From: Gemella sanguinis ATCC 700632
Lineage (GTDB): Bacteria; Bacillota; Bacilli; Staphylococcales; Gemellaceae
Direction: 5' to 3'
DNA: 64,000 nucleotides
Assembly (NCBI RefSeq): GCF_000701685.1
Contig: NZ_JNJO01000003.1
Coordinates: 62,001 to 126,000, forward strand
The notes below the pieces were generated by a model, which had not been told where the DNA came from, ran no database searches, and was given only the letters and a program-made list of their open reading frames with translations. This document shows positions 25,494 through 32,758 of the stretch, piece after piece (position 1 is the first letter of the stretch; each line of letters opens with the position of its first letter). A program made the translations under genes and the position numbers.

Positions 25494-26447
25494 TTATTTC
25501 GATAATAATGATAATGCTAGTACTGCTGTAGAAACTAATGGAACAATAGAAAGGTAAGGAATATCTCCTATAGCTCCAAAAAGTACTGAAGTTATAAAAT
25601 ATAATAAACTCGAGAATATAGTTATAATAATACCAGTTTCATAAGATAAGGGTTTGTTTATATAAATATTTACAACAACTGTAAGTGCAAGTATCATTAC
25701 AAATATCGCTAAAAACCATGGGAATAACTTAAATAAAAATAAGGCAACAACAATATTAACGATAACTTTAAATATTAGATTATTACCATTTTTCTGGATA
25801 ACTAAAGCATTTAGAAGTATGGCAATTATTAAACCAATAAAATAAAATGGGTTGTAATAAAAATTTTCGTTTAGTGATAACAAACTAGTTATTATTAAAT
25901 ATAAAGCCCAAAGAACACTAATTATTAAAGAAACTTTAGCTAGATTATTATTTTTAATAAATTTTCTACTTTGAGGTACTTCTTTATTATCAGAGTCTAT
26001 TATGTTATCTGAACTTATACTACTATTTAGATTATTAGTATTATTGAAATTAGTGATATTAGTATTTTTATATGTATTTCTTTTATATGTTATACAAGAT
26101 ATTAATAACAAAACTATTTGAATAATAACTGTTACTAAAGTATAAGGGATAAAAACAGCCCCCAAAAATCCAGTTACAGCATATAAAATTAATGTAGTAA
26201 TTACTAATGCAAAGGTATGCCTTTTTTCGAATGAAATAATTATATTGAGTATTGTTGTAATTACTAATGCAATTAAATGAGGTAGTAAAAATCCAAACAC
26301 CATACCAAATCCAATTTGCAGATCTCGTTCTCCATGATCTACTCTATAAGTTGTTGAAATAATTAGATATAAAATAAAGAATACATAAATTGATGTTATT
26401 GCGAGTGATATTCTGGATAGTATTAGAGATACATTATTATTTTTCAT
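25494..26447 (-). CDS. Array membrane protein 7: A-type unit with an extra membrane domain
   Basis: 317 residues. Residues 1-123 are an A-type unit of the array (LILSRISLAITS, FLLPHLIALVITTILNIIISFEKR, YAVTGFLGAVFIP, QIVLLLISCITYKR). After a 40-residue Asn/Ser/Asp-rich linker comes a second region of about 150 residues with five or six membrane segments, unrelated at a glance or strongly diverged; it opens with KNNNLAKVSLIISVLW, reminiscent of another unit start. Last gene of the array. The start has AGGAGGTG. Function unknown. Confidence 0.7.
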   Translation of the reverse strand: MKNNNVSLILSRISLAITSIYVFFILYLIISTTYRVDHGERDLQIGFGMVFGFLLPHLIALVITTILNIIISFEKRHTFALVITTLILYAVTGFLGAVFIPYTLVTVIIQIVLLLISCITYKRNTYKNTNITNFNNTNNLNSSISSDNIIDSDNKEVPQSRKFIKNNNLAKVSLIISVLWALYLIITSLLSLNENFYYNPFYFIGLIIAILLNALVIQKNGNNLIFKVIVNIVVALFLFKLFPWFLAIFVMILALTVVVNIYINKPLSYETGIIITIFSSLLYFITSVLFGAIGDIPYLSIVPLVSTAVLALSLLSK

Positions 26448-26488
26448 ATTAAAACACCTCCTATAAATTAATTATTTGATATGTAGTT

Positions 26489-26830
26489 CTATTTGAATTT
26501 ATAGATACTAATACTTAATAAAACAACTTGCACAGAAACCGCTAGAACCATAATAGTTCCAAGTAAGCCAGCTATAATATATAAAATAAGTGTTATACCT
26601 GTTAATATTTGATTAATGCTTCCTTCTAATGAAATAATGATATTAAATATAGCTGCAATTGCTAGTGCGATTAGATGTGGAAATAGAATTGCTAATAACA
26701 TACCTCCACCAGCTCCTGCACTTGGATCTGAACTAGATGGTGAAGATAAGATAAATAGAAAACCAAAATATAGCAAAGTTATCGCAAGAGATATTCTATT
26801 TAAGACTAGTGAAAAATCATTGTTGTTCAT
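26489..26830 (-). CDS. Array membrane protein 6: A-type unit
   Basis: 113 residues, four predicted membrane segments. Carries the A-type signature: LVLNRISLAITLLY, the Ser/Gly-rich extracytoplasmic-type loop SSPSSSDPSAGAGGG, LFPHLIALAIAAIFNIIISLE, YIIAGLLGT and a Lys-ending tail after QVVLLSI. GGAGG lies close upstream, and the gap to the previous stop is 26 bp. No B partner stands beside it. Function unknown. Confidence 0.75.
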   Translation of the reverse strand: MNNNDFSLVLNRISLAITLLYFGFLFILSSPSSSDPSAGAGGGMLLAILFPHLIALAIAAIFNIIISLEGSINQILTGITLILYIIAGLLGTIMVLAVSVQVVLLSISIYKFK

Positions 26831-26856
26831 TTAACAACCTCCAGTATATTATTTTT

Positions 26857-27618
26857 TTAATTATCTTTATTTTTAAATGTTGCCAAAGCAAATACTAACA
26901 GTATTACTTGGATAATAGATATTATTACAGTAGATGGGAAAAAAAGTTCTCCTAGCATTCCAGAAATTACGTATATACTTATTGTTGTCATTATCATAGA
27001 TTCATTAATAGTTTGTTTTAGTGAAATGAAAATATTAAATACAGTAGCTGTTACAACAGCTGCTAGATGAAAAGGTAGATATTCAATAATCATATCCATC
27101 CAATTTTCTACACTTGAATATAAACTAGATGATTCAAATATAGTAACTAGCCAACCTATATATGGCAAAGTTATTACTAGTGATATTCTTGTTAAAAATA
27201 GAGGTAAAGTGTTATTTTTCAACTTAAAATTACTCTCATTAATTCTTTTTAATATATTAGCCATTTTATTATATTTTTTTAAGGCTAAACAAGCAAGTAT
27301 TAAAAAGATAGTTTGTGGAACAAAAAAAACACATAGTATACGAATATAATAATAATCAGGGAATAAAGAAATCAACATTGCTCCAAAACTAATATATAAA
27401 AAAAGTGTTATTAATATCAGGGGTAAGGGATTGTTATCTTCATAGTGTTTTTTATAGGAAATCTTAATATTTAATATAGTAGGTATTAAGAATAAAATAA
27501 ATAAAAATATTAGGTAGTATAAAAAAACAAGTCCAACTGTTAAAAATACAAACCAAATGAATAAAGTTATTGCAAGTGCTATTCTAGAAAACATTAGTGG
27601 TAGTTTATTATTTTCCAT
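26857..27618 (-). CDS. Array membrane protein 5: natural B-A fusion
   Basis: 253 residues. Residues about 1-114 are B-type (LMFSRIALAITLFIWF, IPTILNIKISYKKHYE, FVPQTIFLILACLALKK) and about 132-253 are A-type (NNTLPLFLTRISLVITL, LPFHLAAVVTATVFNIFIS, YVISGMLGELFFP, QVILLVFALATFK). The linker KYNKMANILKRINESNF is translated from what is an untranslated spacer between separate B and A genes elsewhere in the array: the TAG stop became TAT, the Shine-Dalgarno decayed and the A-gene ATG became TTG. Start has AGGAGG. Confidence 0.8.
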   Translation of the reverse strand: MENNKLPLMFSRIALAITLFIWFVFLTVGLVFLYYLIFLFILFLIPTILNIKISYKKHYEDNNPLPLILITLFLYISFGAMLISLFPDYYYIRILCVFFVPQTIFLILACLALKKYNKMANILKRINESNFKLKNNTLPLFLTRISLVITLPYIGWLVTIFESSSLYSSVENWMDMIIEYLPFHLAAVVTATVFNIFISLKQTINESMIMTTISIYVISGMLGELFFPSTVIISIIQVILLVFALATFKNKDN

Positions 27619-27645
27619 GTTAGAATCCTCCTGAATATTATTTCT

Positions 27646-28011
27646 TTAATCATCTTTATTTTTAAATGTTGACAAAGAAAATACTAATAGTATTACTTGG
27701 ATAATAGCTATTATTACTGTAGATGTGAAAAAAAGTGCTCCTAGCATTCCGGCAAATACGTATATAATTATTGTTATAATTATCAAGGGTTCATTAATAC
27801 TTTCTTTAAATGAAATAATAATATTAAATAGAGCGGCTATTACTACAGCAGTTAGATATGGATATAAGAAGAACATTATAATACCCACTCCACCTCCTGC
27901 GCTTGAATAGGAGCTAGATGATTCAAATAAATTAAATAGCCAACCTATATATAGTAATGTTATTCCTAGTGTTATTCTAGTAAGGACTAAAGCTGTTGTA
28001 TTTTTTTCCAT
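27646..28011 (-). CDS. Array membrane protein 4: A-type unit
   Basis: 121 residues, four membrane segments, A-type signature: LVLTRITLGITLLYIGWLF, Ser-rich loop ESSSSYSSAGGG, FLYPYLTAVVIAALFNIIIS, YVFAGMLGALFF and QVILLVFSLSTFKNKDD. The inner ATG is chosen because AAAGGAGT is 7 nt from it; the longer frame would put the ribosome binding site inside the gene. Its C-terminal half is nearly identical to the A half of the adjacent fusion, so duplication is recent. Confidence 0.75.
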   Translation of the reverse strand: MEKNTTALVLTRITLGITLLYIGWLFNLFESSSSYSSAGGGVGIIMFFLYPYLTAVVIAALFNIIISFKESINEPLIIITIIIYVFAGMLGALFFTSTVIIAIIQVILLVFSLSTFKNKDD

Positions 28012-28050
28012 TTTAAAAACTCCTTTCATTCTTTTTTGTAACTATATTAA

Positions 28051-28404
28051 TTATTTTATTCTGTCTTTGTTAAATGTTAAATAAGCAAGTATTAAAAAGA
28101 TAGTTTGTGGAATAAAGAATATAGCAAATATATAGAATAGAAAAGGTGCTATAAAAGTTATTATTAGACCAAAAATAATATAAGAAAGTAGTGTGATAAG
28201 TATCATTCCAAAGAAATCATCTTGTTCATATCGTTTTTCATAAGAAATAATAATATTTAATATAGTTGGGATTAAGTATATTAAGAATATTGGAAATAGG
28301 AAGTAAGTATAAGCCAAGAAGATTGTTAAGGCTAGAAACCAAATAAATAAAGTTATTGTAAGAGCTGTTCTAGATAATTGAAGAGATTGTTTATTCTTTT
28401 CCAT
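28051..28404 (-). CDS. Array membrane protein 3: B-type unit
   Basis: 117 residues, four membrane segments, B-type signature: LQLSRTALTITLFIWFLAL, LIYLIPTILNIIISYEKRYEQ, SYIIFGLIITFI and FFIPQTIFLILAYLTFNK. The longer frame starts 22 codons upstream, but AGGAGG is 8 nt from this ATG and the N-terminus MEKNK matches the other B unit. The spacer in front (AATAATATTCAGGAGGA) is also found before the B-A fusion gene. Confidence 0.75.
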   Translation of the reverse strand: MEKNKQSLQLSRTALTITLFIWFLALTIFLAYTYFLFPIFLIYLIPTILNIIISYEKRYEQDDFFGMILITLLSYIIFGLIITFIAPFLFYIFAIFFIPQTIFLILAYLTFNKDRIK

Positions 28405-28469
28405 GTTAAATTCCTCCTGAATATTATTTTTACGAAATAATGTATTTTTTTCTTTTATAAAATAAGACA

Positions 28470-28835
28470 CTATTTAAAGGTTATACAAGCAATTAATAAT
28501 AAGATAACTTGAATCGTAATTGCTGGGATAGTCAAACTACTAAAAAAAGGAACGAAAAAAGCACCTAGTAATCCTGATGCAATATAAACAATAAGTGTTA
28601 TAACTATTAGTGGTTGGTTTATAATGCGTTCAAATGAAATAATAATATTTAATATAGTAGAAATTGCTAATGTAACTAGATGTGGAAATAAGAATACCAA
28701 CATCATACCTATTCCATCTCCTACACTACGATCTGAACTAGATGGTGTGGATAAAACAAATAGTGCACCTATATATAGTAAAGTTATACCTAGTGATATT
28801 CTTGTTAAAACTAGAGGTAAAGTGTTGTTTTTCAT
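28470..28835 (-). CDS. Array membrane protein 2: A-type unit
   Basis: 121 residues, four membrane segments, A-type signature: LVLTRISLGITLLYIGALF, loop STPSSSDRSVGDG, FLFPHLVTLAISTILNIIIS, YIASGLLGAFFVP and QVILLLIACITFK. Start ATG has GAGGAG. The 48-bp spacer between it and the preceding B gene is the best match to the fossil spacer inside the fusion gene. Confidence 0.75.
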   Translation of the reverse strand: MKNNTLPLVLTRISLGITLLYIGALFVLSTPSSSDRSVGDGIGMMLVFLFPHLVTLAISTILNIIISFERIINQPLIVITLIVYIASGLLGAFFVPFFSSLTIPAITIQVILLLIACITFK

Positions 28836-28883
28836 TATAAAACTCCTCTCATTTATTTTTTTAATTATACTAACTGTTTTTTT

Positions 28884-29228
28884 CTATTTTTTAAATATTA
28901 AACAAGAAAGTATTAAAAAGGTAGTTTGCGGAATAAATAATATATAAATTATATCGGCTAGATACGAAGGATACATAGAAATTGATATCACCCCAAAACC
29001 AATATATGAAAAAAGTGTTGCCAAAATCCCTGCTAAGGAATTACTTTTTTTATGATTCTTTTCATAAGCAATGATAATATTAAATATAGTTGGGACTATG
29101 TATAAAAAAAAGATAGGCAGTAGAAATAATGTATAACCACAGTAGATAGTTAAAGCGAGAAACCAAATTAATAAAGTTATTGTAAGGGCTGTTCTAGATA
29201 GCTGTAGAGATAGTTTATTCTTTTCCAT
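28884..29228 (-). CDS. Array membrane protein 1: B-type unit, coupled to the response regulator
   Basis: 114 residues, four membrane segments, B-type signature: LQLSRTALTITLLIWFLAL, YIVPTIFNIIIAYEKNHKK, SYIGFGVISISM and LFIPQTTFLILSCLIFKK. The ATG follows the response-regulator stop by one base, with the ribosome binding site inside that gene, so the two are translationally coupled. This ties the membrane-protein array to the two-component system. Confidence 0.75.
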   Translation of the reverse strand: MEKNKLSLQLSRTALTITLLIWFLALTIYCGYTLFLLPIFFLYIVPTIFNIIIAYEKNHKKSNSLAGILATLFSYIGFGVISISMYPSYLADIIYILFIPQTTFLILSCLIFKK

Positions 29229-29229
29229 T

Positions 29230-29829
29230 TTATATCCAGCCTTCTTCAGTTGCCTTTTTTACAGCTTCTGTTCTATTTTTACAATTAAGTTTTGTTAGTA
29301 TATTAGAAATATAATTTCTTATTGTCCCTTCAGATAAATATAGTTCTGAAGAGATTTCTTTATTAGACAAACCTTCTTTAACTTTTACTAATAATATTTT
29401 TTCTTGATTTGATAGGGGATTATGATTAGTAAAAATATTTTCCATAAGTTCTGGTGAATATTCCTTATTCCCTGCTAAAACATTATTTATTGTTTTCATT
29501 AATTCATCGATAGAGCGATCTTTAAGAACATATGCATCAACATTATTTTTAATGGCACGTTCAAAGTAACCAGATCTTTTGAATGTTGTAACTATAATTA
29601 CTTTACAGCTTATACCTTTATTACGGATAAATTCTAGTACATCTAAACCTGTAGCTTCAGGCATTTCTATATCTAGTATAGCTACATCAATACTAGAGTC
29701 CACCAATATATCCATTGCTTCTTTTCCATTTTTAGCTTGTAATACCTCATCGATTGAATCTTCCATAAGAAGTAGTGTAGCCATAGCATCACGTAGCATA
29801 CTTTGATCTTCTGCAATTAATAATCTCAT
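29230..29829 (-). CDS. NarL/LuxR-type response regulator
   Basis: 199 residues. Receiver domain with acidic pair Glu7-Asp8, phospho-acceptor Asp53 in ILDIEMP and the Lys of TTFKRSGY; C-terminal LuxR-type helix-turn-helix ([20 protein letters not shown]). Closest in style to DesR/YvfU-type regulators. The inner ATG is chosen because GGAGG is 5 nt from it; the upstream ATG overlaps the kinase stop. Partner of the adjacent kinase and probable regulator of the exporter and array. Confidence 0.92.
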
Positions 29830-29840
29830 AAATACCTCCA

Positions 29841-30932
29841 TTAGTTGTCTTTACTAATTGTTACTCTAATAATAGTAGGTTCTTTTTTAGAAAGTATTTC
29901 TATTTTTCCTTCTACTACCTTTATTCTTTCCCTAATTGAAGCTAATTCACTTCCTGTTATTACCTCAAATCCACAACCATTATCTTTAGCAGTAATAGTG
30001 TAGTTATTATTACTCTCATCTAATATTATATCACATTTATTAGCTTTACTGTGTTTAATAATATTATTTGTTAATTCCTTTAAAATCATCGTAATAGTCC
30101 ACTCTTGAAGCCCAGTTGGTTTAGTAGCAAAATTGTTATTAAGATTTAGTTGAATATCACTCATTATCATAATATCTTGGATAATTTTAATTTCTTCTTT
30201 AATGGTACGGTGTTTAAGTTTATTAACTATTGCACGTGTATTATCCATTGATTCTTTACTAATTTTACTAATTTCACTAAGTTCTTTTTTTGCTGCTTCT
30301 ATATTATTTTTTTGTAAATATTTCTCTGCAAGCTCAGCCTTAAGTTTTAACATAACAAAAGTATGTCCAATACTATCATGGAGATCTTGACCAATTCTAT
30401 TACGCTCATTTTCAGCTAGTAGGATATTAATATGCTCGTTATATTTAATACGTTCATTTTTTAGCTTGTTTCTTTCGTAACCACGTTTTTGTAGAAAGTA
30501 CGTAATGAGACATAGGAAGTAGAAACAAAACATAATTACTTTATCACCTAAAAATAGTGATGTTAGCGCAATATGAATCATAATTGAATTAATTACTATA
30601 AAGAAACTTATTGATCTATATGTAGTGTAATCATCATGAAATCTCCAAACCAATAGATTACTTAGATAAAAAGAAAATAACATATTCGTTGGATTAATAT
30701 ATAGTGCCATAAATGCAATATAGAAAGCTAAATAAAACCATTCTATAAAAATAATATACTTATTTTCAGTAAATAGAATAGAAATATATGAAACAATCGC
30801 CATTATAGTCAGAGGCAATATATAAATTGGATAACTACCATTAACTATATATACTAGTGGAAAAACAAAAAATACTAGTGATATAAAAAACATATAGTTA
30901 GATTTAATTTTATTTATTAATACTTTATTCAT
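29841..30932 (-). CDS. Membrane histidine kinase, HisKA_3 (NarL partner) type
   Basis: 363 residues. Five or six N-terminal membrane segments (about 12-145) without a large external sensor loop, so the signal is probably in the membrane or from a partner. The dimerisation/phosphorylation helix has DLHDSIGH with His185; the ATPase domain has [12 protein letters not shown] (N box, about 286-297) and DNGCGFEV. Similar in plan to DesK-like kinases. Order ATPase-permease-kinase-regulator matches the known B. subtilis yvfRSTU module. Confidence 0.92.
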
Positions 30933-30972
30933 GTTCGTCTCCTTTATTTAAAGGTATATTTTATATGATATC

Positions 30973-31015
30973 ACAAAACTAAAGGTGTGTGAATAATGTA
31001 ATCACACACCCTTAG
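30973..31015 (-). terminator. Internal terminator between the exporter and two-component genes
   Basis: Minus strand: 14-bp stem CTAAGGGTGTGTGA / TCACACACCTTTAG (one G-T pair) followed by TTTTGT, two bases after the permease stop. It probably reduces read-through into the kinase gene. A TATAAA-type -10 follows near 30965, so the kinase, regulator and array may also have their own promoter. Confidence 0.75.
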
Positions 31016-31016
31016 C

Positions 31017-31757
31017 TTATTTAGTTTCTGTTTTACGTTTAATTACTAAAGTAAGGATAATAAATCCAAAACTATAAGCAAGTAAAACTCCAAATGAAGA
31101 GAAAGAGAAAACTCCATCTTTAAGATATTTATTTACAAATTCTAATAGGTTATATGTTGGAGTTACTTTAGAAATATTTTGTAACCATTCTGGGAATAGG
31201 TAAGTTGGCCACCATAATCCACCTAACATAGCTAATCCTAAATATAAAATATTTGCTAATAAACTTAATTTTTCTACTGATTGAATTAGACTTAATAATA
31301 GTCCCATTCCTAAGAAAGTAATACTACCAAGAACCATTAATACTCCTGCCATAATCCATTCACGTGCACTCATATTAACATCTCTTAGAAAATGTCCAAC
31401 GATGAATACTACAACAACAGATACTATAAAAGTGAAAATAATACGAATAAAACGTGCTATATAGTATTCAGATAACTTAATAGGTGAATTGTTAATTAAG
31501 TGTAGATAGTTATTATTTTCATCTTCTCTAATAGAAACAGGTAGAGAGAAGAATGCAAAGCTTATGCTACTGAATGCAGTCATTGAAATTAGCATATCTT
31601 TAATAACTTTAGTTTGAACAGCAGGATCATCAAATTGTTGCATTCCTGAAAATAATACAAAGAAGATTACTGGGAAACCTAATCCCATAATAAAGTTTGA
31701 TAAATTTCTTTTAGTAAAAATAAATTCCATTTTTAAAAGTGTGCCTATATTGCTCAT
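31017..31757 (-). CDS. ABC-2-type exporter permease
   Basis: 246 residues with six membrane segments and the ABC-2 family signature near residue 165-185 (SVEKLSLLANILYLGLAMLG) followed by WWPTYLFPEWLQ. Pairs with the ATPase 12 bp upstream. Such exporters next to NarL-type two-component systems usually handle peptides, lipids or drugs; the substrate here is unknown. Confidence 0.9.
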   Translation of the reverse strand: MSNIGTLLKMEFIFTKRNLSNFIMGLGFPVIFFVLFSGMQQFDDPAVQTKVIKDMLISMTAFSSISFAFFSLPVSIREDENNNYLHLINNSPIKLSEYYIARFIRIIFTFIVSVVVVFIVGHFLRDVNMSAREWIMAGVLMVLGSITFLGMGLLLSLIQSVEKLSLLANILYLGLAMLGGLWWPTYLFPEWLQNISKVTPTYNLLEFVNKYLKDGVFSFSSFGVLLAYSFGFIILTLVIKRKTETK

Positions 31758-31769
31758 TGCCTTGTCTCC

Positions 31770-32657
31770 TTATTGTTCTTTAGTAGTATTAAATATACTA
31801 TCAAGTAGTGTTCTGTTTTGAATTTCTAAATCATTTAAAGTACATCCTGATTTTTGTAAAGTATTCCAAATTAAATCAGTTTTTTTAGTTAAGAAGTTGA
31901 AACTATCTCGTTTTATTTCTAAGTTGTAAATTTCTGGATTGTTTTCAATAACTTCTAAGTATTTAATAGGTAAAGTGAAGAATTTCTCTACTTCTTCAGC
32001 TCTCATAGCGTGTGGAGTAGTATCACGAATTAGTTCCCCTTTATTAAGAACTAATATTCTATCTGCAGTATGTTCTACTTCTTCAATATAGTGAGAAGAG
32101 TAGATAATAGTTAAGCCGTCATTTTTTAATGTATTTACTATTTCCCAAAATCTAATACGTGTTGAAGTGTCCATTCCAGCAGTTGGTTCATCTAAAAATA
32201 GAATACTTGGTTTTCCTATTAATGAAAGTACGAAAGAAAGAAGTCTTCTTTGACCTCCTGAAAGTTTAGAGGCAAAAGTTTCTTTTAGTTTGCTATCAAA
32301 TCTTAATAAGTTGTCAATTTCTTCATCAGATAAATGATCTTTATATAGTTTTTTCACAAAATCAATTAATTCTTTAACTTTAAGTTTTTGAGGAACAACA
32401 TTTTCTTGTGGAAGAACATTAACTGATTTTTTTAATTTATTATTTGTTGGTTGTAAATTATTTATTTTAATACTTCCTGAATCTATAAATTTATTACCTA
32501 AAAGGCAATTCATTAATGTTGTTTTACCAGCTCCATTTGGTCCTATAAGAGCTACGCAATCCCCTTCGAAAATATCGAATGAAATGTTATTTAAAATTCT
32601 TTTTTTATTTATTTGTTTATTAATATTTTTAATTTCTATAACTTTTTTTGTTTCCAT
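31770..32657 (-). CDS. ABC exporter ATP-binding protein
   Basis: 295 residues. Walker A GPNGAGKTT (about 42-50), Q-loop LPQENVVPQ, signature KLSGGQRRLLSF, Walker B SILFLDEPTAGMD, H-loop YSSHYIEEVEHTADR, then a C-terminal extension of about 80 residues. The ATG is preferred over a GTG three codons earlier because that GTG is part of the ribosome binding site GAGGTG. First gene of the exporter, two-component and array cluster. Confidence 0.93.
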   Translation of the reverse strand: METKKVIEIKNINKQINKKRILNNISFDIFEGDCVALIGPNGAGKTTLMNCLLGNKFIDSGSIKINNLQPTNNKLKKSVNVLPQENVVPQKLKVKELIDFVKKLYKDHLSDEEIDNLLRFDSKLKETFASKLSGGQRRLLSFVLSLIGKPSILFLDEPTAGMDTSTRIRFWEIVNTLKNDGLTIIYSSHYIEEVEHTADRILVLNKGELIRDTTPHAMRAEEVEKFFTLPIKYLEVIENNPEIYNLEIKRDSFNFLTKKTDLIWNTLQKSGCTLNDLEIQNRTLLDSIFNTTKEQ

Positions 32658-32684
32658 TTTTGTCACCTCTTGTTTGATGATTTA

Positions 32685-32758
32685 ATTATAGCAAAGTAAA
32701 AAATATAATTTCAGTAGAACTTGTCATTACACAATATGACAAATGTCACATTGTCATA
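32685..32758 (-). promoter_or_regulatory. Promoter and upstream TGACA repeats of the exporter operon
   Basis: Minus strand -10 TATAAT (32690-32685) with a weak -35. Upstream (32758-32721) TGACA occurs three times in direct and once in inverted orientation, including an 8-bp inverted repeat TATGACAA / TTGTCATA with 8-nt spacer. The distance from the -10 (30-70 bp) suits an activator such as the operon's own NarL-type regulator (inference). Confidence 0.55.

Follow-up and report, generated by a model that had tools for sequence, protein, structure and literature searches.

What are the small membrane-protein genes that follow one another behind the response regulator of a sensor-exporter operon in Gemella sanguinis ATCC 700632, how did they multiply, and what might they do? 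The locus lies in a 64,000-nucleotide stretch of contig NZ_JNJO01000003.1 (the window, to which coordinates refer) of a 1.8 Mb genome. We found an array of eight clear homologous units in seven intact genes, ordered B, A, B, A, B-A fused, A, A by the two subtypes of one four-helix family. The core operon ahead of the array is already known, being of the YvfRSTU and pneumococcal TCS11 kind; the attached family is without a described home. In the libraries and papers searched, no array that combines B-A pairs with a natural fusion has been described. Literature searches likewise returned no description of a system with this layout, as an earlier note on this DNA had claimed.

Eight units of one membrane-protein family

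The earlier note had read seven consecutive minus-strand open reading frames (ORFs), the first B unit beginning one base past the regulator stop, in the order B, A, B, A, B-A fused, A, and A with an extension. All of this was borne out by ORF reading: the genes occupy 25494-29228 with spacers like ribosome-binding sites (RBS), the regulator ends at 29230 and the first B unit begins at 29228. No stops interrupt the array, a possibility that note had allowed for; all eight units are open and have good ribosome sites. The features of the array, with transmembrane segments given as TM and lengths in amino acids (aa), are as follows.

28884..29228, minus strand: U1, B-type 4-TM protein, 114 aa
28470..28835, minus strand: U2, A-type 4-TM protein, 121 aa; AlphaFold model m18901d34ece8
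28051..28404, minus strand: U3, B-type 4-TM protein, 117 aa; ATG at 28404, RBS caggagg
27646..28011, minus strand: U4, A-type 4-TM protein, 121 aa; ATG at 28011
27223..27618, minus strand: U5, B-type half and linker of the natural B-A fusion (253-aa ORF, 26857-27618)
26857..27222, minus strand: U6, A-type half of the B-A fusion
26489..26830, minus strand: U7, A-type 4-TM protein, 113 aa
26058..26447, minus strand: U8, A-type part of the last gene (317-aa ORF, 25494-26447)
25494..26057, minus strand: C-terminal extension of the last gene, an N/S-rich linker and a hydrophobic 157-aa segment
25450..25497, minus strand: terminator-like hairpin 3' of the array, -21.5 kcal/mol, z -7.0

The start that the ORF tool gave U3, a GTG at 28470, lies upstream of the preferred ATG at 28404. 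Nine units had been proposed; eight are clear, and for the 157-aa extension a ninth unit found no support, with hhalign values of only 5-14% against the unit profiles and no relative found in 14 other genomes of the family.

Every A unit was linked to every B unit by BLASTP, and the A and B profiles aligned with an hhalign probability of 98%, which upholds the claim of a single family. BLASTP identity was 50-61% among the three B units, 33-61% among the five A units and 26-35% between A and B, and 16 columns of the unit alignment were invariant. The shared motifs listed in the earlier note hold as R-x-x-L-x-I-T, N-I-x-I-[SA] and Q...L once its stricter forms are loosened. The FPHL given for A units is exact in two of the five (the others have YPYL, PFHL or LPHL), and their Ser/Gly-rich first loop is clear in three. 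Conservation peaked at the N-terminus and helix 1 and reached its minimum in loop 1 (28% A-A, 1% A-B). The AlphaFold model of U2 has four long helices (6-29, 39-68, 74-94 and 96-119; mean predicted local distance difference test score, pLDDT, 80), agreeing with a four-segment membrane protein, and charge placement suggests that both termini lie on the cytoplasmic side.

Pfam, NCBIfam and PADLOC searches gave no fitting family, and the proteins match none that has been described. No unit matched the Pfam LiaF domains or Pfam DUF443 at E<=1, no PADLOC anti-phage model matched the array proteins, and Foldseek of the U2 model against the PDB and viral structures returned nothing below E 0.05. Scans of genome contigs and of viral contigs yielded no further relatives, and tblastn against phages and plasmids was empty. 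Phylum-wide matches (E 3e-6 to 7e-4) were rejected as composition noise, which shows how little an E-value near 1e-5 says about proteins of this kind; the readable ones resembled what we took to be a MurJ-like flippase, an AEC-type permease and an AzlC-like protein.

Membership of MsaC (NF038270, cut-off 45 bits) was considered and rejected: the NCBIfam scores were about half the cut-off (two B units reached 23.7 and 21.8 bits, and the A units gave no hit), and hhalign against MsaC gave 56% for B and 0.6-5% for A and mixed profiles, making the profile comparison negative for A. The MsaC-family genes of three Staphylococcus-like loci (L014, L046, L047) lie between a CPBP/Rce1-type protease gene and an ATP-binding cassette (ABC) ATPase-permease pair, and genes for mobilisation/replication or type I restriction are close by.

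The core operon and its operator

The four genes ahead of the array stand in yvfRSTU order (ATPase, permease, kinase, regulator), as the earlier note had it.

32722..32757, minus strand: probable regulator operator ATGACAATGTGACATTTGTCATATTGTGTAATGACA upstream of the ATPase, predicted by motif comparison
31770..32657, minus strand: ABC transporter ATPase (DrrA/CcmA type), first gene of the operon; NCBIfam best TIGR01188 drrA, 5e-43, below its cut-off
31017..31757, minus strand: ABC-2 permease; Pfam ABC2_membrane, 9.8e-16
30965..31020, minus strand: strong hairpin between permease and kinase, -24.4 kcal/mol, z -6.5; possible attenuator or partial terminator
29841..30932, minus strand: DesK-family sensor histidine kinase; HisKA_3, 1.7e-16
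29230..29829, minus strand: NarL/DesR-type response regulator; ATG at 29829, with a longer ORF from 29841

The gene order, the DesK-type kinase, the DesR/spr1814-type regulator and a conserved palindromic operator are those of a YvfRSTU/TCS11-type module. DesK is the best solved relative of the kinase (7e-21); the best PDB chains for the regulator are 4zmr and 4hye ('Response regulator', 3e-75), followed by DesR (1.9e-52). Related kinases sense cold or membrane fluidity (PMC7726353). ATPase orthologues are 72-98% identical in all eight congeners, the permease is present in all nine members of the genus (75-98% identical), and regulator orthologues in Streptococcus-like genomes are ~59-66% identical ('Streptococcus-like' and 'Staphylococcus-like' being inferred labels).

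The operator appears to resemble the DesR type. ACATTTGTCATAT was common to 11/11 upstream regions examined, on the 5' side of the ATPase, mostly inside TATGACATTTGTCATATT...ATGACA. The perfect 15-mer TGACATTTGTCATAT has a single genome-wide copy, at the operon promoter; other matches to it in the genome have two mismatches and are at background level, and a permissive promoter scan gave matches at shuffle level and supports no promoter call. The only specific regulon of TCS11 is its own operon (PMC11034029). The simplest reading here would be a self-contained module with the array as part of its output. The hairpins after the array and between permease and kinase may allow the exporter genes to be partly uncoupled from kinase, regulator and array.

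Two Streptococcus-like core operons (L119, L120) and one from the sister genus (L075) carry other one- or two-helix membrane proteins (60-79 aa) in varying places, as if small membrane accessories had been added to this module repeatedly.

Relatives and the growth of the array

The genus was covered by nine species with one genome each, and its family belongs to an order that also holds Staphylococcus-like genomes. The four-gene core was present in 9/9 species and, at lower identity, in three sister-genus genomes. Six congeners have exactly one A-type gene behind the regulator, in the same chromosomal place and with the same outer neighbours, which makes the link between array and yvfRSTU-order operon a meaningful one, as had been supposed. 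The place behind the regulator holds no A-type gene in G001, in G007 or in any sister-genus operon that was read, nothing similar stands there in 23 Streptococcus-like and 6 Staphylococcus-like regulator loci, and no B-type gene was found outside this genome. This pattern of single copies and absences makes the gene an accessory of the operon in this genus and not a fixed component. No A/B alternation was found beside the same two-component system elsewhere, congeners having one A gene or none. Absence from all relatives, which the earlier note had considered, holds, among the genomes examined, for the array and the B subtype but not for the single gene, kept in six of the eight congeners. The single gene of G005 (L036, position 1863) starts with ATA where close relatives have ATG, and may have an alternative start or be in decay.

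One congener, G006 (L054), differs in its core. Compared with window positions 29700-32740, its DNA is mostly 91-100% identical over a stretch that starts at the promoter, takes in ATPase, permease and kinase and stops after the first part of the regulator; the flanks are 52-81% identical. This is an inter-species recombination tract, one breakpoint lying close to the promoter and the other within the regulator gene. The near-identical core (permease 98% identical) adjoins a single, different A gene.

Within the array, the alternation proposed earlier holds for three B-A pairs and is not strict, the last two genes being A only. Copies are spaced at 786 and 824 bp for B and 789 and 824 bp for A, a repeat of ~0.8 kb including the spacer, and the three pairs have B-A spacers that align along their full length. 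The B units are monophyletic (support 100/100), and the split of A and B units from the single copies is weakly supported (56/84). The alternation is the result of repeated duplication of one B-A pair. The third pair (U5-U6) retains traces of its former state: the B stop is now a sense codon, the ribosome site has changed from GAGAGGAG to GAGAGTAA (gagaggag to gagagtaa), and the A start has gone from ATG to TTG. These losses turned what had been two genes into a single 253-residue protein, and the fusion is direct evidence of pair duplication. By the usual gene-fusion logic it is also an argument that B and A work together. U1 and U2 lie in the same frame, separated by a single stop (TAG; window 28836-29228), and read-through would yield a B-A fusion resembling U5-U6.

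Paralogues are mosaic along their length, identity rising from 58% to 93% for U4/U6 and falling from 88% to 55% for U2/U6, as expected from recombination between copies. Array paralogues had a higher ratio of nonsynonymous to synonymous substitution rates (dN/dS), at 0.40-0.67, than the single copies of close congeners, at 0.11-0.29; the paralogues are constrained but change faster.

Relatives were also found in prophages. A 117-residue protein of the G004 prophage (L129:7792-8145), on the integrase/repressor strand and adjoining a CI-type repressor, is a full-length A-type relative, with hhalign values of 95-96% against A units and single copies; class-preserving shuffles gave <=2% and unrelated membrane proteins <0.6%. 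It matches phrog_31229 (annotated as of unknown function) at 5e-23. A second prophage-like relative (G187), taken by itself, reached only 10-43% by hhalign and is supported mainly via phrog_31229. Two equal-scoring matches near the two contig ends of the G004 chromosome (L129, L040) suggest that G004 carries two copies of the prophage element.

In the history that we propose, the core DesK/DesR and ABC-2 exporter operon would have gained an A-type four-helix gene directly behind the regulator within the genus. In this species the gene would then have been amplified in place, with one A copy diverging into the B type, the B-A pair duplicating to three pairs, one pair fusing, and two further A genes standing behind, one with a hydrophobic extension.

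Possible functions and known systems

We tentatively favour, while granting that it may well be wrong, a role for the array as stress-induced, membrane-resident protection proteins of an immunity- or exclusion-like kind, partly in A:B pairs. Membrane perturbation, sensed by the kinase, would switch the operon on, and A and B would reside in the cytoplasmic membrane, some or all of them joined in A:B complexes. There they might guard the membrane against membrane-acting agents, be they bacteriocin-like peptides, antagonistic toxins or phage entry, and having an array would broaden the range of agents handled, as is thought for tandem TsaI immunity genes. These tandem polytopic membrane immunity genes are the precedent (PMC9484751).

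Several points weigh against a protective role. No family in Pfam, NCBIfam or PADLOC names a function for the proteins, and there was no significant fold match. The structure model of the B-A fusion (pLDDT 57) is too uncertain to show an A:B interface. The raised dN/dS of the paralogues can also be explained by relaxed constraint after duplication, and one genome per species limits the view of array age and copy-number variation. The tie of the prophage protein to superinfection exclusion is positional only. No toxin or bacteriocin biosynthetic gene was recognisable among the ORFs from 20.8 to 37.5 kb, judged by their translations and without a bacteriocin-model search; this counts against self-protection from a peptide of the cell's own, a role that the earlier note had suggested beside a membrane-stress effector and a complex served by the exporter. 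A bolder form of the protective reading, in which an undescribed four-helix family of prophages and hosts has come under a membrane-state sensor and diversified into A:B heteromers as an inducible immunity repertoire against outside peptides, toxins or phages, with no partner toxin in the locus, strikes us as somewhat unlikely.

Signal modulation is an unlikely alternative to protection. The four-helix proteins would bind the kinase (or exporter) within the membrane and adjust how active it is, like LiaF, an accessory negative regulator of LiaRS (PMC3543457), extra copies widening or dampening the input. The gene does adjoin kinase and regulator wherever it stands in a chromosomal operon, it is optional as a modulator can be, and DesK-type kinases read membrane state (PMC7726353). 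Yet modulation rarely needs eight diverged copies, the proteins have no Pfam similarity to LiaF families, relatives retain kinase and regulator without the gene, and the near-identical kinase of G006 stands beside a single, quite different A gene.

That A and B serve the ABC-2 exporter as additional membrane subunits, or as partners in handling its substrate, seems improbable to us. They share its operon, a half-size permease could take membrane partners, and the B-A fusion implies complexes; but the core exists without the gene in two congeners and in sister-genus operons, nothing alike follows the regulator in the 29 Streptococcus-like and Staphylococcus-like loci, and copy number differs about eightfold while the permease is almost unchanged (in G006). 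The gene-less cores and the core exchange beside a different A gene in G006 disfavour an obligatory exporter subunit.

We give still less credence to mostly neutral expansion, duplication and divergence with no selected role beyond that of the single gene. The array is species-specific and its paralogues have a higher dN/dS than the single copies, yet that ratio stays below 1, all eight units are open with good ribosome sites, and the fusion was kept in frame after the internal start was lost. Least probable is phage exclusion, in which a family that began as a prophage lysogeny-region protein would now block phage entry at the membrane: the full-length prophage relative does lie in the region of temperate phages that holds superinfection-exclusion genes such as ltp (PMC3952083), but PADLOC gave no match, the family of the phage protein is annotated as of unknown function, and control by a DesK-type membrane sensor is atypical of phage defence.

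The locus matters for the question of what YvfTU/TCS11-type systems, whose sensors respond to membrane state, transport and bring about. In one lineage a separate and diversifying family of membrane proteins appears to have been coupled to their output. Single-copy, no-copy and array relatives within one genus form a natural series for what the response protects against, and the B-A fusion predicts which proteins act together.

Among known systems, YvfRSTU of B. subtilis and SA1313/1314 and BA5598/5597 with their ABC transporters share the ATPase-permease-kinase-regulator order, the DesK-like kinase, the DesR-like regulator and a palindromic operator at the ATPase promoter; unlike the present locus, they are not reported to carry a series of small membrane-protein genes after the regulator. 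The pneumococcal TCS11 operon (regulator spr1814/RR11) has the same core order and a regulator in the identity range given above; of three Streptococcus-like operons, two have an upstream membrane protein of 60-70 aa, with nothing array-like behind the regulator. The exporter of LnrJK-LnrLMN, the linearmycin resistance system of B. subtilis, has two permeases, LnrM and LnrN. There, too, a two-component system controls an ABC exporter, against membrane-active polyenes (PMC7472640), but there is no four-helix array. MsaC, an Msa family membrane protein, is also a small hydrophobic protein beside an ABC transporter and matches the B units weakly. The phrog_31229 proteins, G004 prophage protein included, share full-length homology with A units and single copies; unlike the array, they are encoded singly in prophages and without a sensor operon. 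The TsaI/DUF443 arrays of Staphylococcus aureus (PMC9484751) likewise consist of tandem, non-identical polytopic proteins with a conserved N-terminal part and a variable rest. They have five predicted helices and the Pfam domain DUF443, where our proteins have four and no DUF443 match, and they lie directly downstream of a tspA-like toxin gene, where here regulator and kinase are upstream instead. The multiplication of one gene into eight diverged copies resembles the build-up of bacterial immunity-protein sets.

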